From: Pilatotrama ljubarskyi
Lineage: Eukaryota; Basidiomycota; Agaricomycetes; Polyporales; Polyporaceae
DNA: 64,000 nucleotides
Reading direction: 5' to 3'
NCBI GenBank assembly: GCA_022385805.1
Contig: MU277713.1
Coordinates: 122,804-186,803, forward strand
Positions 3,531 to 55,992 of the stretch are shown in pieces. The notes beneath the pieces were generated by a model. It made no database searches, had not been told where the DNA came from, and was given only the letters and a program-made list of their open reading frames with translations. Each line of letters opens with the position of its first letter. Position 1 is the stretch's first letter. Position numbers and translations under genes: made by a program.

Positions 3531-5354
3531 CCGCCGGCTGCCTCGTCCAGCTCTGGGCGACGGAAAACCAACGTTGTATATAAAAAACGGGGACTATGCC
3601 TCCCACCTCCAACGGGGCGAGGCGACCGACTGTACGTTCTAGGCTTGCTTGGTATGCTCGTAAGTGTATGTGTCCCGTACGTATGGCGGGGTCGGCTCCC
3701 CGAGAAGTAGTAGCGGACTCTTTCTTGGAAACTGGGTGGACGAAGGACCCTCGTACGTCGCGCATGCTGTCTGTCGTCGCTCTTGTGGTATTTATTAGCC
3801 CGTCGCGCCCGTCCCGAATTTCTCGAAGTCGAAGTAGAACGCGAGCGCTATGTAGTCGCGCATCAGGCGTATTTAATTTAACTTCCCGCCGTAAAGCTTC
3901 ATATGCGCTCCGAAATGTGCTATATGTCAATGTTCTCCGGGGCTTCCGCCTTCGACCGCGAGTGCATCCGGCGCGCAAGTCTCCCACTGGTCCAAGTCGC
4001 CGATCAGACCAGGCCCAGACGCGCTCCCATTCATCGGCGTTTCCACGGAGGCGCGAGGATACGGCGGCGGAGAACACCTGTCACGGACGCGTCCGGTAAC
4101 GCGTCAGTCACGCACGGGCGTCTCGCGTGACGTGCGTACTGCGACCGGAGCGGGAGCGGGGGCCGGAGCCTGGGGAGGAGCGGAGGGTCCGAGTGTCCGA
4201 GTGTCCGAGTGCGAGGCCGGAAGAGGAATGCCGGGTGGGCGAGGCAGCGGCAGAGCCCCCACAAACGATGCATCATCAACAACACTCGCTGGTGGCGGTG
4301 CCCGAGGCTGAGTGGCACACAGCACACGCACGCACGCTCGTGCACTGCTCCTCCGATGGGCCATCGCCCGCGAGTCGGACGCGGATGCAGATGCAGCGCG
4401 CGCGTTTTTTGATTACCGGAGTGCCTGGCCAGCCCGAGCGTGCGTCGGACCCAACGTGTGTGTTCCGCGAGGCTCGGAGATTGCGAGGCAGGCACATCCG
4501 GGTTAGGGCGGGGCCCGCGTCCGTACGTTGTGTGAGTAGGTGGGGCCACATATACGTTGACGACACGTCCAACGCGCGGATCCGGAGCAGCGGATGTGGT
4601 AGTACCTGGTGCGCGGTCGCGCTGCGCGCGATGATGTCGATGCGCGAGATGGGCGAAGGGCGGATTGCTGGGCGGTGCGCGCACGCGCGAGGTACTGACC
4701 CCGCTGTTGGGCGCGGTCGAGCGCTCTGGGGGACGCTTTGCGTGATGCGTTGTCAGAGTCCACAGGCAACCAACTTGGGTACTCATCTTCTATCGAGATT
4801 GGCGGGTTCAGCGTCACGTTCGCAGGCGTCAGGGAGGGGGTTTACCATTCGCCGCCGTTGCACGGTGCTCGAGTAGAAGCTGGAGAGGGCGGTATGGAGC
4901 TGGCGGAGTTTTTCCCTCCGGGTCCCGCGTATCGATTTCGGATAGTCCACGAAGCTACAGTTCGAGGTCAGCGCCCGGCAAGCGTGATCCCGATGATCTT
5001 TGGGAAGGATGCAGCACTTCAGGCCCGTTGCGGAGGTGCAAACCCTTGGTACTCGCTGCCATGCCGAAACTACCAGTACTTAGTAAGACGCTTGCGGACT
5101 TCAATGAGCCAAGAGCAGGCACCGCAGCCAGATAGGACGCTGACATGAGAAGCGTCTGACATTCGAAGCGTCCATGGATTCAGTATTATACACGGATAGA
5201 GCAGGAACCAGGCCAGCTCGGCCTACACGACGCAAAGCATGCGCGTCGTACCGTGAGCGTCGCTAACAGGACAGTACTGATATACCTTGAGGTCACCTCC
5301 TATTATAACCTTCTCCTTCGCGCGGCTGGCAACGAGCCCGAATGCCCGGTCGCA
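3531..5354. other. Intergenic region, no gene recognised
   Basis: About 1.8 kb without a supportable gene. Long frames at 4031-4876 on both strands are Arg/Pro/Ser-rich shadows without motifs. A short tandem repeat of the 8-mer GTGTCCGA lies near 4190-4212. A TATA-like AT-rich run (tatataaaaaa) lies just after the zinc-finger gene at 3576-3586; it may belong to that gene's 3' region. Confidence 0.4.
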
Positions 5355-8058
5355 TCAGTCTGCGACGTCTGATTCGTACTCGCTCGAGTCTGACGAGGAT
5401 CCGGAGTCGGACGGGTCGGACTCCACGTCCGAGCCCGCGACCTGGTCGGGCGGGATGTCAAGGCAACGCCCATGGTAATGGCCTTTCCACGGATGATGAT
5501 ACACCGTGCGGTCTTCGACAGCCTTTCGGGCATTGTCGATGTGGTGCCTACCCGATCGCGACTTTCAGTTGTCACGAACCGCGCAGTGATCGCTATCGAG
5601 ACTCACCACTTTGCGAGATGCACCTTCATAGCCTCGCCAGTTCCGGAAAACGACGGGCAGAGCGCGCAGCACCACTCGGTATCAGCCCCGGCGAGGGGGT
5701 TCTGCTGACTCTCAAAGGCACGGATGACCCACGCCGGCCTGTCGACGCGCCGCCACATGGTTTCGAAGAGGTCAACGTGCAGCGACGCAAGGCCGCAGTG
5801 CGCCCGCGTGTGCTCAAACTGGTCAAGCGCGGACGACAGCGATCAGCATGGGCCGCACCGGTGGAGGACGCTCGACTCACCGCTGCGATCCAATCGTACG
5901 AGCGGCACGGACGTTCGAGGTCGGTGCCGGGATCGACCGGGTCGCAGAAGCCGCATCGCAGCCTAGCCTCGCACCTCGACAGCTCGTCTATCGTCGTTCT
6001 GGCAGGATCCAGCCCGAGCGCCCTGAGGATCTGGCACATGAGCTCAACGTTCACGGCGCCTCTCCGCCCAACTTCGAGGATGCTGCTATCGAAGGGGACT
6101 TGGCCCGCGGCTTGGACTTCGCCCTGGCGTCGCTTCCAGGGGAACGCTTGGTCGGGGAAGTTCAAAGTCATGATCGCTCGCATGTACGCGTCTTTCCTTG
6201 CGCTGGGAATGATCTGCTTGGTGTTGGTGCTGAGGCGGAAGCTGCCGTGGCGCAGGATCGCTGGATACCGCAGGGCGTAGGCCCGCGGATCGAGCACGTA
6301 CGGAACTCCCGACTTGATGGTGAAGACGGCCGCGGCGAGTTCTAGGACATCGACCTTCGCGGGAACCTTTGGGAAGTACTGGCGCATATGGCGCGACAGT
6401 TGCTCCCGGACGTCTGACTCCCACCTGTCCGCCAACGAGGGGACGATGGCCGCGAAGGCAGCAACAGGAGCGACCTCGGACGTAGGCGCCTCCAGAAGAG
6501 CCCTGCACTCGGGTATGAGCGCAAAGTCGATGGCTGTGGGTCTGCACTCCATTCTCGGGGTGCGCGGGATGTCGACGTAATGAGCTTGGAGCAGCTCTTC
6601 GATAACATCGAAGCGCTGCCGCAGGACGCTTCGCAGTTCCGCGTCGAGTCTCTTGGCGCGTGCCTCGTACAGCAGCCTGCGCAGGGCCTTCATCACCTTC
6701 CGCCAGCCTACAAGATACAGTACAGGAAGGTCAGAGTAAGTGGTCATGCGTTCGAACGGGAATCACAGCACTCGCCCGCGTCGGTAAGCCTCTTTGGGCG
6801 GCATATGCAGGGATGCTGGGTGATCGTCTGCAGGCCTTCTTCTCCCATAAAAGCGAGTTCCTTCTCCCATCCGTTCTGGCGCAACCTTGCCAAGATGCTG
6901 GCAGAGCCGAGCGTTAGTGGGCAAAACTGGGCAACCGGAATGATTTACGCACTCGGAGACCCGCTGCTTCGTCCTTGCTTCGAGCTCGGCCACGCGCTCT
7001 TGCTCGAACCAACGTTCAATCTGTGCCGCGCACTGGTGAAGCACGAATGTCAGCTGCACCTGCGAGGGCCTCACTCAGGCTATGACGCACTCGTTTGCGC
7101 TGTGCGCGTTCCTTCATCACCTCCTCGACGAATGCCTTCCGAGATTCTTCAGTGATGGTGTCCCCGAGGGCTTTGTACTGCCTGATGAGTCTATCCAGTT
7201 CCGTCCTGAGGATACGGTTCTTGTTCTCATCGACTTGGTCTCTATGGATGGGCGGCAAAAAATGAGCATCAGGGGTTCCGAGTGCCGTAGGAGTATCTGA
7301 GAGAGTATACTAACGCCCATGATCCCTTCAGAAGGTGGAAGTAGACCGACACGTACTCGTGGCGGAAGATGATATCGCTGAGCTCGCTGTCGATGAGGCG
7401 TACCTCTTCCGCAGCCTGCACGTACCAGACCGTCCTGTAGTAACACTAGGTTAGCACGCGGAGCGGTCATCACGCCGTGGTTCACGTACGCGTTGTGGAC
7501 GCATTTCCTACAGATGCGCATCAGAGACGACCCAGAGATCCACCAAACGCTCGGATAACCGCAGAACTGTCATGTGGTTAATGTCGACGGCGTAGGGCCG
7601 GCGTCTGGATGACTTACATGGCAGGACGATGAGTACAAGAGATGCACATAGGCAGGCGCGCTCAGGAACAAGAGAGGCTCCTTGGGTATTCCCGGGGCGT
7701 TCCGCATTGCGGCATCCCACATCCGCTGTTGAGTCTGAGATAGGAAGAACGTGTGGAACATCTTGCACGATCGCGTCAGATTGTACAGGTCCCTCGGATG
7801 CAGCCGGCTGACAATCTGTCGCGAAAGAGTCGGTGTGTATCTCGCAGCCTGAACGAGCACGAACAATGTGGCGAAGAAGCTTACCTCGAGCACCGCTGCC
7901 AGGGGCAGGACGAGCAAGCCCCGCTGACCAGCATCACTTCGTCGGAGGGGAGCCCGGCAAATTACAGCTTGGTTGGTTGAGTCGGCAGAAGACGCGATGT
8001 CGCGCAGCGCGTCCGTCGGTACGTCGTTGTCGACCTTGACTCTCTTGGCTGGCTCCAT
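5355..8058 (-). CDS. F-box protein with C-terminal C2H2 zinc finger, paralog A
   Basis: Multi-exon minus-strand gene. The start (8058) opens with MEPAKRVKVDND, a basic, nuclear-type N-terminus. After an intron at about 7950-7880 the F-box reads LPLAAVLE|IVSRLHPRDLYNLTRSCKMF, the Skp1-binding helix pattern. The following HLLYSSSCHVS block matches paralogs B and C (HLLYSAYC, HLLYSPYC). The large middle exon (5900-6747) shares the blocks RP(T/Q/R)xIDFAxxPEC, ALGLDP(A/L/M)xTTxxEL and LRCGFC with both paralogs. The C-terminus has a C2H2 finger, CALC-x12-H-x4-H, split by an intron. The last exon starts at HHIDNARKAV and ends in an acidic Asp/Ser tail, stop at 5355. F-box proteins recruit substrates to SCF ubiquitin ligases; the finger may bind the substrate or DNA. 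The target is unknown. Confidence 0.75.
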
Positions 8059-11145: not shown

Positions 11146-11249
11146 TCAAGCAATCTCTGCCGCGGTTTCCTTCTCGCGTGTGCGCTCATAGAGGAAGACC
11201 CGGTTAGTGCAACCCGAACGCCCGTCCCAGGAAGGATGGACGTAGATAG
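11146..11249 (-). pseudogene. Severed 3' end of the last exon of F-box paralog B
   Basis: On the minus strand these bases read on from the transposon target site CTATCTA as VHPSWDGRSG...ERTREKE and reach a TGA at 11146-11148. In paralog C the matching stretch is GTIYVHPSSSPAEP. In B the GTIY half lies at 15444-15460, on the other side of the transposon. The fragment no longer has a start or splice site and would not be translated as part of B. Confidence 0.75.
11243..11249. repeat. 7-bp target site duplication TAGATAG, left copy
   Basis: TAGATAG lies immediately before the left terminal repeat and again immediately after the right one (15444-15450). The base beyond the duplication differs on the two sides, so its length is exactly seven. 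Confidence 0.9.
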
Positions 11250-11264
11250 TGGGGAGGGGCAATC
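11250..11264 (+). repeat. Left terminal inverted repeat, copy 1
   Basis: TGGGGAGGGGCAATC, an exact inverted match of 15429-15443. The next base differs (G on the left against C on the right), which ends the repeat. Confidence 0.92.
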
Positions 11265-11760
11265 GGAGGGGGAAATCAATTAGCGCGCGTCCTTTCCCAC
11301 CGTGTCCTCAGCCGAGCGTGCCTTCCTGATTAGGTGGTGTAATCGTTGCCGGTGGCTGAAGGTATGGTCGAGCAAAGTCTGCCACCGTACTTCATACCAT
11401 CCACCCCGATAAGCTTAGAATCATTTCAGATTGTCTATGAATGTATACTAAAGAAGACTCTTCAAGCCGGATTTCTTTCATTTCCGGTGAGGTGCATAGA
11501 CGCTCATGGAACCGTCCTCGAATGCATGTAATGCAGTCATGATTTAAAAAACAAGCTTGAAGGATATGTCGGTGCGCATATGAGGGATCATATGCCCGAG
11601 TTTCAGAAGAATCATGCGAGTGAGCAACAATTGAGGCACGAAGAACTTCGTTCTCATGGCTTGAATTTGGACATGTATAAGCGCTCATAGTAGCGCTCTT
11701 GTCATGTCCACCGGTCCGACTGAGCAACCGCCCTAGTACTACTTGAAAGCATTCGAGCGC

Positions 11761-14700
11761 ATGGCACGTACGGCATTGCAGAGGCTGCAGCTTGCAAAAA
11801 ATCATGCAAAATTACATGGGAAGCCTCCCTGTGTAGCTACCGCTACATCCAAGCCGCCTCGACCTCGGGACAAGGAGAACACAGCACCCGTGCCTCCTCA
11901 TGATCCTGCTGTACAAGGCCAACAGGGTGGACATGGCACATCAATGCAACGTCAGTGAATGTATAGACGGATATAATGAACGCTTACCTAATTCCACACA
12001 CATACATGACAGCCAAAACCCACTCTCAGGCTTGTAGCCTCACAGATACGAGCATGGCACACTTCCTGAATGGCAATGCTGCTGCCTCAGCAGTAGTCCC
12101 TCTGCCACCACCACGACTGGCCGCTACATCATCCAGCCTGCGGAGAAATCAGGCACAAAGCTATCGTCATGAGCTCGAGAAGGCCCGCCGACGTGAAAGA
12201 CGGATCCGCAAGGACAAAAATGTCCTGACAGAGAAGCTCCGCGCGCTGGAGGCTCGGGCGGCCGCCGAAGTCTCCACTCTGCAACGTCAGCTCGACGCTG
12301 CTATAGAGGAGAGCGGAAGGGCATGGGCGGAGACAGAGCAGTGGCGTACCCGAGATGCTCAGCTATTGGTTGCTATGACGGCCCTCCAGGATGAGAAGAG
12401 TGCCGTCGAGGTTGAGCTGGCCGCTACGGCGGCAGCATTTGTGGAGGCAAGCGAGTTCGCCTCCGCTACCATAGCGGCTCTCATCATTCAGAGTGCAGAG
12501 ACTCTGAATGAAGAGCAAAGGCTCACTACATGTGTGTCTGACAAGTTGCACTGTGAGTAGTACTGCTATACGCACACTTATCAGGTAGTCCTTACACGAT
12601 TGTCATGCAATAACTAGCCGCGAACACACAGCTTGAGGCTGTCCGAAGAAAGCTTCGTATCGAGAAGAAGCAAGCTGTCCTGCTGCGTCGCCAGGTCCTA
12701 CGCTTCCCCGGCCGCCTCGCAATCACAGCTAACCGCGCGTTGGAGAAGGCACTGGTCACTATCCGTATGGTGACAGCATTCCACCTAAAAGAGAATGGAG
12801 TCATCTCGGAGCGTGCTCGGCATATGATCAGGGAGCTTGTCAAGCTGAACGTACCCGTGAACAACGTGAGCGACGTCATCCTTGCCGTAGCGGAGGCGAT
12901 GGGTATGGATGTTCAGGGCAGCGTGCACAAGCGTTCTGTCAGCCGAATTGTACTGGAAGGATTAGTCGCTGCTAAGATCCAGATTGTGAGTGAACTCACG
13001 CATGCCGAAGGTCAGTGAGTTGTTCTATAGTTGGTCAGAACCATTCATAAAGCTTGGTAGCAGGCGTTACCATCAGTGGCGATGGGACAAACCACAAGAA
13101 TGTCAACTTCGAGTCCTGTAACCTCTACCTCAACTACGACGACACTCATGTCCGTCGCTTCCTCGGCATTCACTCTGCTCCAAACCATACTAGCGAGCAG
13201 CAGTTAGCCGGCTGGCAGGCACGGTTCCAGGACCTCTACGACACTTACAACCGAAGTCCGCAGGGCAAGGCCGTCCCTCGAGATGCCCGGGAGCTTCCTT
13301 GCATGGTGGTCGGAATGACTACAGACCATGCAAACGACCAGAAGAAGCTGCACAGGCTGATGAAGGAATGGAAGATGCGGTGTGATCGAGAGCTCAGGGG
13401 AGAGAGGGCGGTGATGCTGATGCTGCCAGAGGAACTCAGCAGCCTGCTGCATGAAACGTCGGTGAAGGCCATTACAGAGGCAGGTGATCAGACGAAGTGG
13501 GAGGCGACCGACGATGCCCGAAAGCAGGAATGGAGCCGTACGATCCTGCAGCAACTCGTTGATCACCTGGGCAAGGCGGAATACGACAACGTGCCTGAAG
13601 AGGAGAAACGGAGGGCAAGCCTCTTTGTCAGTGGGTTCTGCTGCATGCATAAAGAGCTCAACGCCGTGAAGGGGGGCAACGCACGCATGGTTGCTGCGTG
13701 GGCCAAGCTGGGTCTTACACCTCCATTGGTCCTCATGAACAAGGAGAATGCAGCAGCGGCTGAATGCGGACCTTCGGACGCCCAGGACCGGGCCATGGAG
13801 GTGTCCGACAGTGGTGGTGTCAAGACGACGAACCTCGCGGGTTTGATTTTCCGTCACAAGGATGATAAGAAGGGTCAGCAAGATACATTCCGGATCTTCT
13901 TTGAGGCATCCAGCGCGGTCGGAGCAGCCGTTCACTTCCCCGACACAAGCAATACCCGTTACCAGTCGCATTGCGAGGCGGCAGCTGAGCTTCTTGTCCA
14001 TCTCGATCTCTACATTGAGTTCCTGGCCTTCGTCCGAGACAAGAAGACCAAACGCACCTTCAACAACCTGGAGAACAATGTATATCGTGCACTGCATGAC
14101 ATCCCCACCCTCACCGAGCTCTGTGCCCTTACCCTGTACTCTCAATCAGTCAGCCACCCCTATCTTCGTCAGGTCCGCGGTCACAACGCCGAGTCCTCCA
14201 ATCACCTCGACTTGGGACCGCTGCATACCCGAGTCAAAGCTCACCTTACGCGCATCATCCAAGCTCCAGGACTACTGCTTGCCCCAGACGCGTCCTACGA
14301 GCACGGAACACTTGATGGAAAGCCCTGGGAGCGTCCCGAAGCATTCTACTCGGTCCACCGTCTGGCGCGACAACTCCCCGACCTCGAAGTTATCCTAGTC
14401 GAATTCTTTCGCGGTGCACTGGATACCTGGGAGCTCTTCGCAGCGGAATTCGCACCTGGAGGGCTAATCAGTACCCTGTCTTCTGCGGAGCGAAAACGTG
14501 CATGGATGCGAACCACAAATGACGACAACGAAGGGGCTTTGGGCGAGTTCCGTGTATGCGCGAGACGTGCTCCAAGCCTCACCCTTCATCAGCACAACGC
14601 TCGAAAGATGTATAAGGTGAATGGCACAGGTGACTTCATGAAGACTCACCTCTCGCCTGAGGGCCATTCGCATGTCAGAGCAGAGGCTCGTGTCCTAGAC

Positions 14701-15099
14701 AGCAGCGGACTCGAGCGCAAGCGGAAGTGGGAACAGGCGGAGGCGGACAAACGAGCGGTAGGGGAAAAGCGGCTCAAGGATCAGGAGAAGGTGAAGAAGG
14801 ACGCGGAGAAGCGCGAACGGCTTGACAAGCTGCCGCCACTGCCAGATACGGTGGATCTGTCAAAATTGAACGTCACCAACCTCGACCTCTACCTCGACTG
14901 GCATAGACAGTTCGACAGCTCCATTCCGATGAAGAGTAAACTCACAAGAAAGGCGGCAAAGGTCGAGGCATTGCACGAGGCGATCCAAAGGCATCGGGAT
15001 TCAGAGATGACGACCGATGGTAGCCAGATGGTGAGGATTGAAGCTTGTGGAGAATTTGACGACGCGGGTAGATCACTGGAGGCGGAATGCCTGGCATAG
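11761..15099 (+). CDS. Putative DDE transposase of the 4.2-kb element, copy 1
   Basis: Suggested exons are 11761-11950, 12013-12552, 12618-13010 and 13061-15099, about 1,053 residues, phases consistent. The second exon could also begin at 12046. The N-terminal part has a long basic coiled coil (ELEKARRRERRIRKDKN and following heptads). The third exon is a helical domain (VSDVILAVAEAMG, HKRSVSRIVLEG) that may bind DNA. The last exon holds the catalytic-looking core: SGDGTNHKN (Asp at residue 10 of the exon's frame), GMTTDHANDQKK (Asp 91), the CxxH motif CCMHKELNAVKGGN (196-199), and after a 290-residue helical insertion TNDDNEGALGEFR (Glu 493). A D-D-E triad with CxxH and a large insertion is typical of hAT-like transposases. 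The tail is a Lys/Arg/Glu-rich coiled coil. No stop codon or frameshift is visible, so it may be active. The exact start is uncertain. Confidence 0.75.
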
Positions 15100-15428
15100 A
15101 GTATTTATACCTGAGCTTCGTCGGGCGGATAAGTGAGAAGCACTCAGGGTTGGTGGGCATGTGCGTAGCGGGAAGCAGCCAATGGCACCGTCGTGATTCG
15201 CCTGGCAGAAGGCCCTCACAAAGCTTCAGTCCTCAAGCAGAATGCATGTTCTGGGATGCCTGTGACAACTAGGGCGGCCTCCCGGCATGTAGACAGTGCT
15301 CGAAGGGAGGGACCGTGAAGGATCCGCCACACCGACCATAGGATTGCAGTCTAAGCGAGGACGCGTATCAAAAATCTACAGAGATAAGATGCCAGATCTG
15401 TAGGCGCCCAGTACATTTCCGCTGGCGG

Positions 15429-15443
15429 GATTGCCCCTCCCCA
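15429..15443 (-). repeat. Right terminal inverted repeat, copy 1
   Basis: GATTGCCCCTCCCCA, the exact reverse complement of the left end at 11250-11264. Confidence 0.92.
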
Positions 15444-15450
15444 TAGATAG
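15444..15450. repeat. 7-bp target site duplication TAGATAG, right copy
   Basis: Repeats 11243-11249. It falls inside codons of F-box paralog B that encode Thr-Ile-Tyr. Confidence 0.9.
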
Positions 15451-18133
15451 TCCCGTCACTCTCCGCTTGCGCAAAATCCTCGATGCCGTGGCTATAGAGA
15501 GAACACGCGATCAGCACAACGTTTAAAATAGGACTCGACTTCGCGATGCTCACCTCTTCGCGAGATGGTCTATTATACCTCTGTGATTCCCTATGAACGT
15601 GGGACAAAGAGAACAAGACCAACGCAGGTAGTACGGGCGCCAGCGCCACTCGACAACCTTCCGCGATGCTTCCTCCACAGCAGCGTGAACCGTGACATAG
15701 TCTTCTTCGTCCACGTGGCGCCACTCCGCCCCACGTTGATGGTCGAAGTGGGAGTCGTGCTCGTACTGAAGAGACAGAAAGGAATGTCAGTAGCAGTCTT
15801 GGAAGCGAGGGCGGCTTCCTGTGCCCCACCCGAAGACTCACCGCTCCTCTCCACGAGTAGGCGTAGACCTGCTGACGCGGATTATAGCTCTTCAGCTCGC
15901 GTCTCTCGCATGTCTTGCAGCGCAGCCAGGTGTCACAACCCTCCAGTTCCTCGAACGTTGTTGTCAACGGATCCAAGCCGAGCGCTGAGACGATTTTGCC
16001 CATTCGAGCAACCGCGGACTCCACTACGTCCGGATGCGCTTGCAGCTCTACAAGGGTGAAAGGCACGAACGCCCGCACGTCGTGGTGAGGCTGTTCGAGG
16101 GCCTTGAAGGTGTGCTCCGACCAGTGAAGAGACTTGACGGTGCGTGTATACTGGTCGTCGTTCTCGAATTCCTCCTTCGTGATGCGACGTGAATGGAAGC
16201 AGTGCTGCCAGCATGTGTGGGCGAAGATCTTCGGGTACCGCATACATTCGATGAGAAAGGAGCAATCCGGCCCCCCATACGACTTTGGCAAGGTAAAGCA
16301 AGCGATTGCTAGTTCCAAGGGGTTCATACAAGCAGGGACATTGCCAAGGAATGGGCGGATGAACTCGGTCAGCTCTTTCTTGCGATCCACCTCCCACTTG
16401 GCAACCAGCGTCGGGATCACGGAGGCAAAGTCGGCGGCAGTGACGGTCTCGGAGGTCGGGAGGTCTATGATCGCCTTGCACTCAGGCGTATAGGCGAAGT
16501 CGATAGGCTGCGGCCGGCAGTCCATGCGGGCGGTGCGGGGGAGCGTGACGTAGCATGCAGCAATCGCCTCGTTGAGCGCGTCAAATCGCGCGCGGATGGC
16601 AGCTCGGTACTCTTTGTCCAGTCGGACAATCCGCGTCTCGTTCAGGTAGTTGTCGAGCGAGGCGAGTACCTTTTGCCATGCTGTGAAGTCGCATTGCTAG
16701 TGTGAGCCTGTGCACATGTGCCTGTGGTTGGGATTGCACTCACCTCCCTCCGTGAGCTTTGACGACTGCCGTACGACGGGAAAATTCGACATCTCCTCGA
16801 TGCCTTCCTCGCCCATGAAGTCGAGCTCTTTGTCCCACCCGCTCTCGCGCAACCGAAGAATGATCCTGACCAAAGGCAGAATGAGTGAAGTCCAACGGCA
16901 GCCTACATGTAGACGTGGGAACACATACTCTTCAAAACGTTGCTTTCTGGAGTCGCCCAGATTAGCCTTCCTCTCCTCCACACGTTCGCGTAGCCACTTG
17001 TGTATTGGTCTCGCATACTGGTGCGCGAACGTCAGAATTCGATGGGCACATCAACCTTGAACTCGGCTTACCTGCAGACGTTCACTGTACTGTTCTTGTA
17101 GCCTCGTCTTGAAGGCCTTGACAGCTTCACTCGTCAAAGGAGTCGGGAGCGCCTTGATCTGGCTGAAGATGTGGTCCACATGCTCCTTCAGCAGTCGGTT
17201 GCCCTTCTTTTCATAGGGACGGCTGCCAGGGAGGCAGAGGGAGTGCAGATTGAGCTTAGTATGTTCGGTCTAAGAACAGGCGTGGTAATGCTCACTGCGT
17301 TTCTTCGAGAAGAGGACAGTAGGAGCCCACATTGTGGTAGTCGAATATGAAGGAAAGAGAGAAATCGATCTTATACGCTGCCTCGACTGCGTCGCGGTAC
17401 CATACAGTCCTGTTCGGCAAAATTCACTTTGTTGAGCGCTAGGAAGAGCAAGCCAGAAATCTGACGTACCGTTCCGGGAGACATTTCGAACAGCACCGCA
17501 TGAAGCAGGCCGGGAGGATCTTGCGCACATTGGGACTGCCACAGTTCTACGTGGGATTCAGCGTCCGAAAACGCGGAGCGTGCTCTTATGACTCACGTAG
17601 CAATACGCCGAGTACAAGAGGTGAATGAACGCGGGCTCGCTCATGAACGGAGGCCGCGGAGGGAGGGCGTCGGTGTCCAGATTGCGACGAGCCTGCCGCC
17701 ACAAGGGCTCGTTGAGTTTGCGGTCGAGGAAGAAGGCGCGGAACTTCTTGCATGTGCGCGAAAGGTGCAAGAGATCCCGGGGCTCAAGGTAGCTATATAT
17801 CTGTGCATGGCAAGTGGCACGTCGGTTAGCCATATGAGAGGTTGAACGCGAAGTTCTTAATGGGCTTACTTCAAGTTGTATCTCCAAAGCGAAGTCTGGA
17901 AGCGACTGCAGGCGTCCTTTACGGACAATCCGCTTCGTAGCCTGCCCATTTGCATTGAAAGCTTCTTTGGCCGCTTTCTTTGCGGGAAGCCTCTGTCGAC
18001 GAGGATTAGACTGATGCTGCGCATTTGACTGGGCCCTCGTCGTTGCTCTAGTCATACGGCGAGTCGGAACAGCCGAGGTGGAGGCTGCTGGAGTGTCGTC
18101 TGCGGCTGTCTTCTGTTTCTTGCGAGGAGGCAT
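15444..18133 (-). pseudogene. F-box / C2H2 finger protein, paralog B, interrupted by the transposon
   Basis: The start at 18133 gives MPPRKKQKTAADD, close to paralog C's MPPRKRQKTDTDD. The F-box spans an intron: LPDFALEIQLE|IYSYLEPRDLLHLSRTC. Then come FMSEPAFIHLLYSAYC, the large middle exon (15880-16525) with RPQPIDFAYTPEC, ALGLDPLTTTFEEL and WLRCKTC, and a C2H2 finger CSLC-x12-H-x4-H split by an intron. After HGIEDFAQAESDGTIY the reading frame meets the transposon end at 15443. Translation would run on into the element for 24 residues and stop at 15368. The F-box and finger stay complete, so a truncated, chimeric but possibly functional protein is conceivable; loss of function is not proven. 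The normal tail remains at 11146-11249. Confidence 0.8.
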
Positions 18134-30776: not shown

Positions 30777-32159
30777 CACTGGGTGGAAGGACCTCGGAGT
30801 CGGAGGTGTAGTGGGTCAGAGTCGCTGATAGTAGATCCCGATTTCGGACTTCGAATGCGCAGAGAGCCCTCACCCTCGGGTGGCTGCGGGCTACCGTGGG
30901 TTTGTCTGGATTGGCCATGCACTCGAGGTTAGGGTGTGTGAGCCATCCGCGGGTCGGTATAGCTGCAAGTAGCTCTCCCACACCCATCTAGTCAACCATC
31001 GAGCTCGAGCCGTTATACAGGGTGCAGTAGGTGAGCATTCTCCAATTCAGAAATATTAAATTTTTGGGAATGCATACAGTAGTTATTGGGTGATTTGAAC
31101 AGATAGATTATATATTGCTGCCATAACATCCTACTATACATCGCACACGGCACCGGTACGTCGCCGACCCAGCATACGCTCACCGGAGCTGTATGTATTC
31201 CACCTCATCCCAGGTCTGACTCTGACATGCTTTGTATGTGATTCCGACGACCGCTTGAACATATGAACCTGTTACATAACCGCAGTTAAGAGCCGTTATC
31301 GAGCCATGACAATGCATATACTCACCTTCAATGTCCGTACTGACGAGGGCAACCTCTGTAAGCAATCCGCCCGACCTGTGTGCCCGCGAAACTATACTTT
31401 ATGGAAAGCTGATTACTATATTAGTAGTTGGTAGCGTGTTATGGGAACGTGGGGGCTTAGCGCATACCTCTTCATTGTCTGAAGTGTCCGTCCAGATCGG
31501 CAGCCTCTGCATCGTATAGGTAGTGCTGGCGAAAGTCGACAAATGTCGAGCTCAGCATATATGAAGGGGCGACTATGTAAAAGGCGACTTACACTCTGAG
31601 ATAGCCGACTATATGCGCCTTCAGTATGCAGAAGCGTCTTAGCAGCGGCTTAACGATGAGTAACATGAATGTACTGACCACTCACCTGTTAGCTATGTGC
31701 CGGTGGATCGTAGGAGGGACTGCAGCGGGAGAATGCCCAGGGAGCGGTAGGGAAGAGGTGAGGCGTGTCGTGGGCGGAAGCAAGGACTCGCGACAAGTTA
31801 CGCGACAGTTGGCCGTCCGAGCTTAAGAGAGCCGGCCGGAAAGCCCCTTGCCCAGGACTCGGCCGTGCTCCTCGGTAGTCCGCTGATACGTTAGGGAAAG
31901 TCTTGCAGTTGAAACTCAGAGTGGACGAGGTGGAGACATCTATTACGAGGGAGTCTGAGCTATTGCAGAGCGTAGAGCGGCGCGTCAAGTCCGGGCTTGA
32001 AGTGCCCGTGACCGCGTCGGGCTCTCACAGTTATTTGAGCTCCGCAATATGGCGTCTATTCTAACCCTTGCAATAGCTTAGAGTGGATGGGAATAGCTGA
32101 TTATCTGTGACTAGCTCGCGTTTATTCCCGCTGCGACTCCGAGGTCCTTCCACCCAGTG
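30777..32159. mobile_element. CACTA-like non-autonomous DNA transposon (1,383 bp)
   Basis: The left end begins CACTGGGTGGAAGG and continues as a perfect 26-bp repeat to 30802; the exact inverse is at 32134-32159, ending ...CACCCAGTG. The trinucleotide ATT directly flanks both ends (30774-30776 and 32160-32162). A CACTG terminus with a 3-bp duplication is the signature of the CACTA/EnSpm superfamily. No transposase frame is present, so it depends on an enzyme encoded elsewhere. Confidence 0.85.
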
Positions 32160-32951: not shown

Positions 32952-33790
32952 AGCCCCCCTCAATTCTTTTTTTTATCGCTCATTTTATTTCCCACGATGA
33001 GCGAGCNNNNNNNNNNNNNNNNNNNNNNNNNNNNNNNNNNNNNNNNNNNNNNNNNNNNNNNNNNNNNNNNNNNNNNNNNNNNNNNNNNNNNNNNNNNNNN
33101 NNNNNNNNNNNNNNNNNNNNNNNNNNNNNNNNNNNNNNNNNNNNNNNNNNNNNNNNNNNNNNNNNNNNNNNNNNNNNNNNNNNNNNNNNNNNNNNNNNNN
33201 NNNNNNNNNNNNNNNNNNNNNNNNNNNNNNNNNNNNNNNNNNNNNNNNNNNNNNNNNNNNNNNNNNNNNNNNNNNNNNNNNNNNNNNNNNNNNNNNNNNN
33301 NNNNNNNNNNNNNNNNNNNNNNNNNNNNNNNNNNNNNNNNNNNNNNNNNNNNNNNNNNNNNNNNNNNNNNNNNNNNNNNNNNNNNNNNNNNNNNNNNNNN
33401 NNNNNNNNNNNNNNNNNNNNNNNNNNNNNNNNNNNNNNNNNNNNNNNNNNNNNNNNNNNNNNNNNNNNNNNNNNNNNNNNNNNNNNNNNNNNNNNNNNNN
33501 NNNNNNNNNNNNNNNNNNNNNNNNNNNNNNNNNNNNNNNNNNNNNNNNNNNNNNNNNNNNNNNNNNNNNNNNNNNNNNNNNNNNNNNNNNNNNNNNNNNN
33601 NNNNNNNNNNNNNNNNNNNNNNNNNNNNNNNNNNNNNNNNNNNNNNNNNNNNNNNNNNNNNNNNNNNNNNNNNNNNNNNNNNNNNNNNNNNNNNNNGACG
33701 CAACGGAGAGCGTCCTTTGCGTCACCCCGAGCTGCGCTCGCTCATCGTGGGAAATAAAATGAGCGATAAAAAAAAGAATTGAGGGGGGCT
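32952..33790. mobile_element. Element with long terminal inverted repeats, centre missing
   Basis: The left end, AGCCCCCCTCAATTC at 32952 through GAGCGAGC at 33006, is matched without mismatch by the reverse complement of 33736-33790: at least 55 bp of inverted repeat. The middle is an assembly gap. Flanks read gtACT|AGCCCC and GGGGCT|ACTgt, so the target duplication is either ACT, or TA if the element starts at GCCCCCC. The superfamily stays open (Tc1/mariner-like for TA). About 39 bases (33697-33735) of interior are visible on the right. Confidence 0.75.
33007..33696. other. Assembly gap (690 N)
   Basis: Run of unknown bases inside the inverted-repeat element. The long inverted repeats probably broke the assembly. 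All frames that cross it are meaningless. Confidence 1.
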
Positions 33791-33832: not shown

Positions 33833-33839
33833 TTGTTTT
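33833..33839. repeat. 7-bp target site duplication TTGTTTT, left copy
   Basis: TTGTTTT precedes copy 2 of the 4.2-kb transposon and recurs right after it at 38034-38040. It differs from the TAGATAG at copy 1, so the two insertions are independent events. Confidence 0.9.
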
Positions 33840-36800
33840 TGGGGAGGGGCAATCGGAGGGGGAAATCAATTAGCGCGCGTCCTTTCCCACCGTGTCCTCA
33901 GCCGAGCGTGCCTTCCTGATTAGGTGGTGTAATCGTTGCCGGTGGCTGAAGGTATGGTCGAGCAAAGTCTGCCACCGTACTTCATACCATCCACCCCGAT
34001 AAGCTTAGAATCATTTCAGATTGTCTATGAATGTATACTAAAGAAGACTCTTCAAGCCGGATTTCTTTCATTTCCGGTGAGGTGCATAGACGCTCATGGA
34101 ACCGTCCTCGAATGCATGTAATGCAGTCATGATTTAAAAAACAAGCTTGAAGGATATGTCGGTGCGCATATGAGGGATCATATGCCCGAGTTTCAGAAGA
34201 ATCATGCGAGTGAGCAACAATTGAGGCACGAAGAACTTCGTTCTCATGGCTTGAATTTGGACATGTATAAGCGCTCATAGTAGCGCTCTTGTCATGTCCA
34301 CCGGTCCGACTGAGCAACCGCCCTAGTACTACTTGAAAGCATTCGAGCGCATGGCACGTACGGCATTGCAGAGGCTGCAGCTTGCAAAAAATCATGCAAA
34401 ATTACATGGGAAGCCTCCCTGTGTAGCTACCGCTACATCCAAGCCGCCTCGACCTCGGGACAAGGAGAACACAGCACCCGTGCCTCCTCATGATCCTGCT
34501 GTACAAGGCCAACAGGGTGGACATGGCACATCAATGCAACGTCAGTGAATGTATAGACGGATATAATGAACGCTTACCTAATTCCACACACATACATGAC
34601 AGCCAAAACCCACTCTCAGGCTTGTAGCCTCACAGATACGAGCATGGCACACTTCCTGAATGGCAATGCTGCTGCCTCAGCAGTAGTCCCTCTGCCACCA
34701 CCACGACTGGCCGCTACATCATCCAGCCTGCGGAGAAATCAGGCACAAAGCTATCGTCATGAGCTCGAGAAGGCCCGCCGACGTGAAAGACGGATCCGCA
34801 AGGACAAAAATGTCCTGACAGAGAAGCTCCGCGCGCTGGAGGCTCGGGCGGCCGCCGAAGTCTCCACTCTGCAACGTCAGCTCGACGCTGCTATAGAGGA
34901 GAGCGGAAGGGCATGGGCGGAGACAGAGCAGTGGCGTACCCGAGATGCTCAGCTATTGGTTGCTATGACGGCCCTCCAGGATGAGAAGAGTGCCGTCGAG
35001 GTTGAGCTGGCCGCTACGGCGGCAGCATTTGTGGAGGCAAGCGAGTTCGCCTCCGCTACCATAGCGGCTCTCATCATTCAGAGTGCAGAGACTCTGAATG
35101 AAGAGCAAAGGCTCACTACATGTGTGTCTGACAAGTTGCACTGTGAGTAGTACTGCTATACGCACACTTATCAGGTAGTCCTTACACGATTGTCATGCAA
35201 TAACTAGCCGCGAACACACAGCTTGAGGCTGTCCGAAGAAAGCTTCGTATCGAGAAGAAGCAAGCTGTCCTGCTGCGTCGCCAGGTCCTACGCTTCCCCG
35301 GCCGCCTCGCAATCACAGCTAACCGCGCGTTGGAGAAGGCACTGGTCACTATCCGTATGGTGACAGCATTCCACCTAAAAGAGAATGGAGTCATCTCGGA
35401 GCGTGCTCGGCATATGATCAGGGAGCTTGTCAAGCTGAACGTACCCGTGAACAACGTGAGCGACGTCATCCTTGCCGTAGCGGAGGCGATGGGTATGGAT
35501 GTTCAGGGCAGCGTGCACAAGCGTTCTGTCAGCCGAATTGTACTGGAAGGATTAGTCGCTGCTAAGATCCAGATTGTGAGTGAACTCACGCATGCCGAAG
35601 GTCAGTGAGTTGTTCTATAGTTGGTCAGAACCATTCATAAAGCTTGGTAGCAGGCGTTACCATCAGTGGCGATGGGACAAACCACAAGAATGTCAACTTC
35701 GAGTCCTGTAACCTCTACCTCAACTACGACGACACTCATGTCCGTCGCTTCCTCGGCATTCACTCTGCTCCAAACCATACTAGCGAGCAGCAGTTAGCCG
35801 GCTGGCAGGCACGGTTCCAGGACCTCTACGACACTTACAACCGAAGTCCGCAGGGCAAGGCCGTCCCTCGAGATGCCCGGGAGCTTCCTTGCATGGTGGT
35901 CGGAATGACTACAGACCATGCAAACGACCAGAAGAAGCTGCACAGGCTGATGAAGGAATGGAAGATGCGGTGTGATCGAGAGCTCAGGGGAGAGAGGGCG
36001 GTGATGCTGATGCTGCCAGAGGAACTCAGCAGCCTGCTGCATGAAACGTCGGTGAAGGCCATTACAGAGGCAGGTGATCAGACGAAGTGGGAGGCGACCG
36101 ACGATGCCCGAAAGCAGGAATGGAGCCGTACGATCCTGCAGCAACTCGTTGATCACCTGGGCAAGGCGGAATACGACAACGTGCCTGAAGAGGAGAAACG
36201 GAGGGCAAGCCTCTTTGTCAGTGGGTTCTGCTGCATGCATAAAGAGCTCAACGCCGTGAAGGGGGGCAACGCACGCATGGTTGCTGCGTGGGCCAAGCTG
36301 GGTCTTACACCTCCATTGGTCCTCATGAACAAGGAGAATGCAGCAGCGGCTGAATGCGGACCTTCGGACGCCCAGGACCGGGCCATGGAGGTGTCCGACA
36401 GTGGTGGTGTCAAGACGACGAACCTCGCGGGTTTGATTTTCCGTCACAAGGATGATAAGAAGGGTCAGCAAGATACATTCCGGATCTTCTTTGAGGCATC
36501 CAGCGCGGTCGGAGCAGCCGTTCACTTCCCCGACACAAGCAATACCCGTTACCAGTCGCATTGCGAGGCGGCAGCTGAGCTTCTTGTCCATCTCGATCTC
36601 TACATTGAGTTCCTGGCCTTCGTCCGAGACAAGAAGACCAAACGCACCTTCAACAACCTGGAGAACAATGTATATCGTGCACTGCATGACATCCCCACCC
36701 TCACCGAGCTCTGTGCCCTTACCCTGTACTCTCAATCAGTCAGCCACCCCTATCTTCGTCAGGTCCGCGGTCACAACGCCGAGTCCTCCAATCACCTCGA

Positions 36801-38033
36801 CTTGGGACCGCTGCATACCCGAGTCAAAGCTCACCTTACGCGCATCATCCAAGCTCCAGGACTACTGCTTGCCCCAGACGCGTCCTACGAGCACGGAACA
36901 CTTGATGGAAAGCCCTGGGAGCGTCCCGAAGCATTCTACTCGGTCCACCGTCTGGCGCGACAACTCCCCGACCTCGAAGTTATCCTAGTCGAATTCTTTC
37001 GCGGTGCACTGGATACCTGGGAGCTCTTCGCAGCGGAATTCGCACCTGGAGGGCTAATCAGTACCCTGTCTTCTGCGGAGCGAAAACGTGCATGGATGCG
37101 AACCACAAATGACGACAACGAAGGGGCTTTGGGCGAGTTCCGTGTATGCGCGAGACGTGCTCCAAGCCTCACCCTTCATCAGCACAACGCTCGAAAGATG
37201 TATAAGGTGAATGGCACAGGTGACTTCATGAAGACTCACCTCTCGCCTGAGGGCCATTCGCATGTCAGAGCAGAGGCTCGTGTCCTAGACAGCAGCGGAC
37301 TCGAGCGCAAGCGGAAGTGGGAACAGGCGGAGGCGGACAAACGAGCGGTAGGGGAAAAGCGGCTCAAGGATCAGGAGAAGGTGAAGAAGGACGCGGAGAA
37401 GCGCGAACGGCTTGACAAGCTGCCGCCACTGCCAGATACGGTGGATCTGTCAAAATTGAACGTCACCAACCTCGACCTCTACCTCGACTGGCATAGACAG
37501 TTCGACAGCTCCATTCCGATGAAGAGTAAACTCACAAGAAAGGCGGCAAAGGTCGAGGCATTGCACGAGGCGATCCAAAGGCATCGGGATTCAGAGATGA
37601 CGACCGATGGTAGCCAGATGGTGAGGATTGAAGCTTGTGGAGAATTTGACGACGCGGGTAGATCACTGGAGGCGGAATGCCTGGCATAGAGTATTTATAC
37701 CTGAGCTTCGTCGGGCGGATAAGTGAGAAGCACTCAGGGTTGGTGGGCATGTGCGTAGCGGGAAGCAGCCAATGGCACCGTCGTGATTCGCCTGGCAGAA
37801 GGCCCTCACAAAGCTTCAGTCCTCAAGCAGAATGCATGTTCTGGGATGCCTGTGACAACTAGGGCGGCCTCCCGGCATGTAGACAGTGCTCGAAGGGAGG
37901 GACCGTGAAGGATCCGCCACACCGACCATAGGATTGCAGTCTAAGCGAGGACGCGTATCAAAAATCTACAGAGATAAGATGCCAGATCTGTAGGCGCCCA
38001 GTACATTTCCGCTGGCGGGATTGCCCCTCCCCA
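33840..38033 (+). mobile_element. Complete DDE-type DNA transposon, copy 2 (4,194 bp)
   Basis: Same length, orientation, 15-bp inverted repeats (33840-33854 and 38019-38033) and coding content as copy 1. Every base I compared is shifted by exactly 22,590 from copy 1, with no mismatch or indel noticed. It lies 50 bp from the inverted-repeat element and about 715 bp upstream of the amino-acid permease start codon. Confidence 0.92.
34351..37689 (+). CDS. Putative DDE transposase, copy 2
   Basis: Identical to copy 1 in all reading frames. Suggested exons are 34351-34540, 34603-35142, 35208-35600 and 35651-37689. The catalytic-type residues (Asp in SGDG, Asp in TTDH, CxxH, Glu in DNEGALG) and the coiled coils are intact. 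The last acceptor is a TAGCAG tandem, so two splice forms differing by one residue at the start of the catalytic exon are possible. Confidence 0.75.
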
Positions 38034-38040
38034 TTGTTTT
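38034..38040. repeat. 7-bp target site duplication TTGTTTT, right copy
   Basis: Matches 33833-33839. Confidence 0.9.
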
Positions 38041-55869: not shown

Positions 55870-55896
55870 GATGTCCCCTTCGGGGTGACATACGAA

Positions 55897-55927
<31 letters not shown>

Positions 55928-55992
55928 GGCCCCTGCACAAGGATGACACGCTTTCCCGGAGTGGTAGACCTACGGGTCTCAATATTTATTTT
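55870..55992 (+). ncRNA. U6: U6 spliceosomal snRNA
   Basis: The conserved core is intact: AATTGGAACGATACAGAG (55899-55916), containing the ACAGAGA box that pairs with the 5' splice site, then AGATTAGCATGGCC, and CCCCTGCACAAGGATGACAC, which carries the U4-pairing and internal stem-loop region (AGC triad in TTAGCATGG). A 5' hairpin with a TTCG loop (GTCCCCTTCGGGGTGAC) starts at about 55873. A 3' hairpin AGACC-TACG-GGTCT and a TTTT terminator (55989-55992) follow. TAGCATGGCC also acts as a pol III A box. Unlike some fungal U6 genes, no intron interrupts the core. The 5' end is approximate. Confidence 0.95.

Follow-up and report, generated by a model that had tools for sequence, protein, structure and literature searches.

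In a 64,000-nucleotide stretch of the Pilatotrama ljubarskyi genome (contig MU277713.1, positions 122,804 to 186,803; referred to below as the window), we found two identical copies of a DNA transposon at different sites, with exact ends, 7-bp target-site duplications (TSDs) and an open transposase gene. The element is very probably an autonomous cut-and-paste transposon from a lineage that is distinct in sequence, apparently unnamed and widespread in Agaricomycetes. A Hermes-like fold is predicted for its transposase; the lineage itself is real and, judged from the structure model, of the hAT-fold type. Gene-less relatives with the same ends, five of them with transposase remnants, were present elsewhere in the genome, and the putative catalytic residues were conserved among homologous proteins.

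Ends and target duplications of the elements

The genome examined was P. ljubarskyi assembly G000 (33,117,029 bases, 173 contigs), in which the window lies within contig C44; the evidence on ends and TSDs covers this one genome. The two copies, each 4194 bp long, showed 0 mismatches between them, and both had perfect 15-bp terminal inverted repeats (TIRs), with TGGGGAGGGGCAATC at the start and its reverse complement at the end. For both copies the flanks matched exactly over a length of 7 bp and failed to match at lengths of 8–12 bp, the probability of a 7-bp match by chance being approximately 1/16384 per insertion. A preliminary description of the window had proposed a DNA transposon family with these two complete copies, TIRs and TSDs, and it was correct in each of these points. 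The coordinates are as follows.

11243..11249, no strand: left TSD of copy 1, TAGATAG (flank repeat; present once, as TAGATTG or TAGATAG, at two paralogous empty sites)
11250..15443, plus strand: copy 1, complete element of 4194 bp (from TIR, TSD and empty sites)
11250..11264, plus strand: left TIR of copy 1, TGGGGAGGGGCAATC (100% complementary to the right TIR)
15429..15443, minus strand: right TIR of copy 1 (complement of the left TIR)
15444..15450, no strand: right TSD of copy 1, TAGATAG (flank repeat)
33833..33839, no strand: left TSD of copy 2, TTGTTTT (flank repeat)
33840..38033, plus strand: copy 2, complete element of 4194 bp with exactly the sequence of copy 1
33840..33854, plus strand: left TIR of copy 2 (same as copy 1)
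38019..38033, minus strand: right TIR of copy 2 (same as copy 1)
38034..38040, no strand: right TSD of copy 2, TTGTTTT (flank repeat)

An exact search of the whole 33.1-Mb assembly with the 15-bp TIR gave four places only, which were the ends of the two window copies, and a DNA search of the assembly recovered the full-length element twice. Because the flanks of the two copies differ, they represent two insertions, both recent, and not one duplicated segment; segmental duplication was rejected on the basis of the different flanks and different TSDs.

When the flanks of copy 1 were joined, they matched across the junction at C44:104894-105257 (76%) and C16:37305-37765 (70%). The two empty sites read AAGGATGGACG-TAGATTG-TCCCGTCA and CAGGATGAACA-TAGATAG-TCCCGTCA, and the filled site consists of TAGATAG, the element and TAGATAG. 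Both paralogous uninterrupted loci hold the target once, with one base different in one paralogue, which settles the extent of copy 1 and its 7-bp duplication independently of the TIRs. The gene apparently disrupted by copy 1 belongs to a small family, and these two loci are its uninterrupted paralogues. A minus-strand open reading frame (window 15368-16696) crosses the copy 1 insertion point (target 11243-11249). A search of the genome yielded no empty site for copy 2, whose left flank is repeated elsewhere.

A search with a distant homologue (P0120) gave one further place in the genome, C56:44972-45241 (E 4e-10), which resembled only the N-terminal part of the family, with approximately 35% identity. 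This relic lies in a decayed relative, C56a, a 2163-bp element at C56:44436-46598 with the TIR TGGGGACTGGCAAC and the TSD TGTGCTG. C56a came from a scan of 9.9 kb for inverted ends with flanking repeats, which returned six candidates; it was chosen (3937-6099 of that stretch) for enclosing the relic and for its 14-bp TIR, similar to the window TIR, and one other candidate (7-bp TIR, 6-bp repeat) also encloses the relic, while the remaining four do not. The pattern common to C56a and the window copies, TGGGGANNGGCAA, had 48 matches in the genome, compared with 9 for the reversed pattern used as a control. From 28 of these matches we obtained 14 convergent pairs with spans of 888 to 7904 bp, and an exact 7-bp TSD was present at 12 of the 14, window copies included, with a longer repeat at none; the chance expectation among 14 pairs is 14/16384, i.e. 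0.0009. Among the new pairs, without the window copies and C56a, the count was 9/11. The ends and the 7-bp TSD recur in further lineages of the same genome, as seen in C56a and in 12/14 TGGGGANNGGCAA pairs. Two pairs have no intact 7-bp TSD: one on C4 (mismatches at 3/7 positions) and one on C54 (5/7); the C54 pair has 1670 N inside and may join two insertions. The element count is a lower bound, 20 of the 48 matches forming no pair. The TGGGG start was not selected for in the window copies and C56a, but the other 11 pairs were picked by that pattern, and the invariance of the terminal bases is thus partly a selection effect.

Three couples of short elements (C21b/C99, C4/C56b and C21a/C35) were 98–99.5% identical over their shared parts, which indicated recent movement of the short derivatives as well. 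L077 (C63:28291-36194) has C21a-type ends, the TSD GAAACAC and approximately 7 kb of other sequence inside, probably a nested insertion.

The transposase, its homologues and its predicted fold

The annotated protein of the window element is P0001 (BV20DRAFT_949876, P. ljubarskyi). The exon model proposed here is in frame, encodes 1046 amino acids and contains P0001 whole; alternative splice choices are possible.

11761..11954, plus strand: proposed exon 1, N-terminal tail (in-frame exon model; resembles homologue N-termini in alignment A1)
12038..12552, plus strand: proposed exon 2, putative coiled-coil-like segment, from the exon model
12618..13010, plus strand: proposed exon 3, from the exon model; the NCBI-annotated P0001 begins inside it, at 12767
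13061..15099, plus strand: last exon, encoding the RNase H-like DDE catalytic domain, its CxxH and a basic tail at the C terminus (motifs, model and homologue conservation)
34351..37689, plus strand: transposase gene of copy 2 (exon model of copy 1 shifted by 22590)

Proposed exon 1 bears a KEN-like motif, which is also found in several homologues. The last exon contains all four motifs quoted in the preliminary description, including SGDGTNHKN, TTDHANDQKK and TNDDNEGALG, and the D-D-E plus CxxH pattern noted there is present and conserved in homologues. Similar proteins had been said to occur widely as 'hypothetical' in mushroom genomes; the search gave 760 matches at E<=1e-3, widespread in mushroom-forming fungi under that name, and Trametes cingulata, Lentinus tigrinus and Wolfiporia cocos were among the species in the matches listed. 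The motifs GDGT, DHAxDQKK, CxMHKxLNxxKGG, NxRY/F and NDxNEGxLG characterize the family.

No Pfam domain of any kind was present in the 120 of the 760 homologues that were listed, including Dimer_Tnp_hAT (PF05699) and BED domains, and P0001 likewise had neither of these two among the 25 families listed of the 45 in 47 members. A Pfam search with the last exon found nothing, and one with 47 family members gave only scattered matches, each in one or two members. The profiles PF14372 and PF04937 matched nowhere, controls included, and were uninformative. The best E value of a PDB sequence search with the transposase was 0.81. Stretches fitting the pattern in IMG/VR (67) and in prokaryote genomes (132) gave no confirmed relative.

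The preliminary description had proposed a comparison of predicted structures, and its outcome was hAT (Hermes): the Hermes-like match stood far above all other families listed in the comparison (VIA), in which the absence of a family does not exclude that family. The predicted model showed the features of a Hermes-type fold, namely an RNase H core and a large helical insertion ahead of the catalytic Glu. The model puts D89 in the first core strand and D170 immediately past a later one; C275-x-x-H278 follows a short strand, and a late helix carries E572. Arranged as D, D, CxxH, R-aromatic, E, the motifs follow the hAT order (D180, D248, H268, R318 and E572 in Hermes), the residue correspondence being by motif order and not by residue-level structural alignment. 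The end-points of the VIA comparison (46 to 135, 604 to 605) would put D89 no more than two residues from Hermes D180, and E572 likewise from Hermes E572. In alignment A2, the acidic residues were conserved in 93/96 (D89), 117/117 (D170) and 117/119 (E572) members, C275 and H278 in 119/120, R381 in 110/116 and Y/F382 in 116/117.

At the position of Hermes Trp319, 117 members had Tyr (87), Phe (29) or Ser (1), and the Trp of Hermes was not matched. PMC6027215 terms D180, D248, R318, W319 and E572 of Hermes essential, and according to PMC4763223 the CxxH of the hAT-derived Kat1 is critical for hairpins whereas its W319 counterpart is not essential. Because this counterpart is dispensable in Kat1, Tyr or Phe would be compatible with hairpin chemistry in the window family. 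The family may thus serve as a natural test of the essential Hermes residues, the hairpin-linked Trp being replaced by Tyr or Phe in 116/117 members and both Asp, the Glu and CxxH being retained.

The transposase would most probably bind the terminal repeats with TGGGGANNGGCAA ends, nick at the TGGGG ends by means of its DDE/CxxH active site and leave hairpins on the flanking DNA. The free 3' ends would then be inserted 7 nt apart, giving the duplication upon repair, and movement would be conservative rather than replicative.

Relation to hAT elements

The preliminary description had regarded 7-bp duplications as unusual. This argument did not hold, since published accounts give 7 bp for hAT7, Kyakuja (both PMC12730594) and Galileo (PMC4168063) and 6–7 bp for Dada (PMC3706591), and we rejected TSD length as diagnostic. 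With 7 bp known in several groups, a new superfamily cannot be read from the length alone, and there is one more reason to distrust TSD length as a marker of superfamilies; what does point to a new superfamily is the isolated sequence of the transposase.

The family seems to act like a hAT element and shares the predicted fold, but we did not file it in hAT, because no hAT profile link was found and the TIR departs from the hAT consensus. The hAT profile (A3) was built from 24 fungal hAT proteins and did not include hAT7 sequences as such; hhalign of A1 against A3 gave a probability of 0.1, and the catalytic cores alone did no better. In hmmsearch between the family and fungal hAT, the best E values were 0.3 and 0.53 in the two directions, whereas the same A3 profile reached Hermes, an insect hAT, at 1.4e-21 in a control. 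The comparison with transposase profiles that had been suggested in the preliminary description thus gave no link to fungal hAT or KDZ profiles. Its view of the family as a poorly described superfamily stood at the sequence level, where no profile relation was detected, and did not stand for the fold, which is the known one of Hermes/hAT.

It is possible, if on balance doubtful, that the family is a very divergent hAT, for example a branch of hAT7 in Agaricomycetes, and ought to be classified as hAT. The predicted Hermes-like fold, well ahead of the other families listed, the hAT order of D-D-E, CxxH and the R-aromatic motif, and the short TIRs all agree with this placement. The TSDs also gave a weak hint of a target-site preference, T2/A6 in 11/24 (uncorrected P 0.007, several positions tested), which resembles the hAT target preference nTnnnnAn. 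As described in PMC12730594 (Kojima 2025), hAT7 of rust fungi has 7-bp TSDs, a likeness that extends to the basidiomycete host and the hAT-type enzyme. That source classes hAT7 as hAT by transposase similarity, its transposases clustering with fungal and plant hATs of the Ac/Tam3 type, and a similarity of this kind was not demonstrable here for the window family, which had no match to the fungal hAT profile and was compared with hAT7 by description only. The hAT TIR consensus [T/C]A[A/G]NG was not matched either: the window copies and C56a have TGGGG, with G and not A as the second base. The absence of any Pfam domain in the 120 listed homologues also argues against filing in hAT. A TSD of 7 bp in 12/14 pairs is not the canonical 8 bp of hAT, but 5, 6 or 7 bp occur in named subgroups, hAT7 among them. 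In comparison with Hermes (PDB 6dwz, 6dww, 4d1q, 2bw3), the window family has no detectable sequence profile relation, Tyr/Phe for Trp319, a TIR of TGGGGA, a 7-bp TSD and, in the model, an extra helical stretch at approximately residues 202-270, between the helix that follows the second Asp and the strand preceding CxxH.

We see about an even chance that the elements constitute an undescribed superfamily of eukaryotic DNA transposons, Agaricomycete-wide, marked by catalytic motifs of its own, by TGGGGANNGGCAA ends and by 7-bp duplications, and having in common with hAT only the fold and the layout of the active site. If so, it would be a sister group, and the hAT-type hairpin transposase fold would be older than the hAT superfamily in its present definition. 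Many 'hypothetical' mushroom proteins can be named as transposases of one lineage. In the open-licence PMC literature, none of the titles and abstract openings listed described this transposase family (Repbase was outside the scope), and among the papers listed a TIR string occurred only in two unrelated ones. The mushroom transposon papers PMC9674265, PMC8290104 and PMC10051438 name hAT, KDZ, Plavaka and others, and their available text held nothing recognisable as the window family.

Other explanations and neighbouring sequences

The short TGGGGANNGGCAA elements would be uninformative on the ends of the window family if some other transposase had moved them. Their subterminal sequences do differ from those of the window copies, the genome search found no intact autonomous partner, and the protein search detected no relic in 7 of the 12 non-window elements (C54, C63, C7, C21a, C35, C50, C103). 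Nevertheless, the other five, which represent three lineages, contained relics of the window transposase family. C56a retains N-terminal domain sequence (E 1e-12); C99, C21b, C4 and C56b retain C-terminal sequence, with best E values between 8e-8 and 7e-7. Moreover, six of the seven relic-free elements resembled a relic carrier at the DNA level (the seventh, C7, resembled none at E 1e-5), and 37 fungal hAT proteins matched none of the elements. A foreign transposase is therefore improbable, and we keep the short elements as derivatives of the window family. With 120 KDZ proteins, only two weak matches were obtained, both inside the window element (E values of 0.004 and 0.009). Four of the five relic carriers retain the part that corresponds to P0001 residues 690-732 (LDxQLxWHR...IPxKxxL...ALxxAVxRY), which seems to resemble a small SAP-like DNA-binding domain. 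Searching for TGGGGANNGGCAA ends together with 7-bp duplications might locate elements of this lineage, among them short derivatives that escape a protein search, as 7/12 did here.

Membership in KDZ, and in Kyakuja in particular, is very unlikely. KDZ elements share mushroom hosts with the window family and are abundant in this genome (29 PF18758 matches by exon), and the Laccaria families of Kyakuja also have 7-bp TSDs, but they have CA..TG termini and no TIRs (PMC12730594), unlike the window elements with their TIRs and TGGGG ends. PF18758 matched neither P0001 nor any of the 120 listed homologues. A KDZ profile built here showed no relation to the family, with an hhalign probability of 1.0 for an alignment of 73 columns that lie outside the catalytic core, and a best hmmsearch E of 0.03. 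The structure model of KDZ gave no Hermes row among 50 listed, although this model was weaker and the absence does not prove a different fold. KDZ membership was rejected on the missing profile relation and the different ends.

A Dada or P-type element is equally hard to credit. TSDs of 6–7 bp are described in Dada, which has D-D-E with D/CxxH and targets small RNA genes (PMC3706591), and of 7 bp, with a few copies of 8 bp, in Galileo of the P superfamily (PMC4168063), and D/CxxH transposases occur in both groups (PMC3706591). In TSD length and catalytic motifs the window family resembles them, but its copies have TIRs, which Dada-U6 and Dada-U1 are described as lacking (PMC3706591), and are not inserted in small RNA genes: none was found at the two window insertions, no tRNA was found in the window, and the sole Rfam match in the window, to U6, was off-site. 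This U6 spliceosomal RNA (window 55873-55989, plus strand) scored 87.1 bits (gathering score 44) across the entire 105-position model; the match spans 117 bases, and a small insertion or intron may lie inside.

That a single element was placed twice by the assembly, as the 100% identity of the copies and the position of copy 2 only 143 bp from a 690-N gap might suggest, is least probable of all, since the flanks and the perfect TSD of one copy are not those of the other and copy 1 has paralogous empty sites.

Perfect 55-bp inverted repeats (AGCCCCCCTCAATTC...) at window 32952-33790 surround this gap (33007-33696), and a dozen further genomic sites also carry part of the repeat arm; the structure, 49 bp to the left of copy 2, is probably another short element. 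Further to the left, the 1383-bp stretch at window 30777-32159 shows perfect inverted repeats of 26 bp, which begin CACTGGGTGG, and is flanked by the 3-bp repeat ATT; we presume from its general features that it is a non-autonomous CACTA/EnSpm element.

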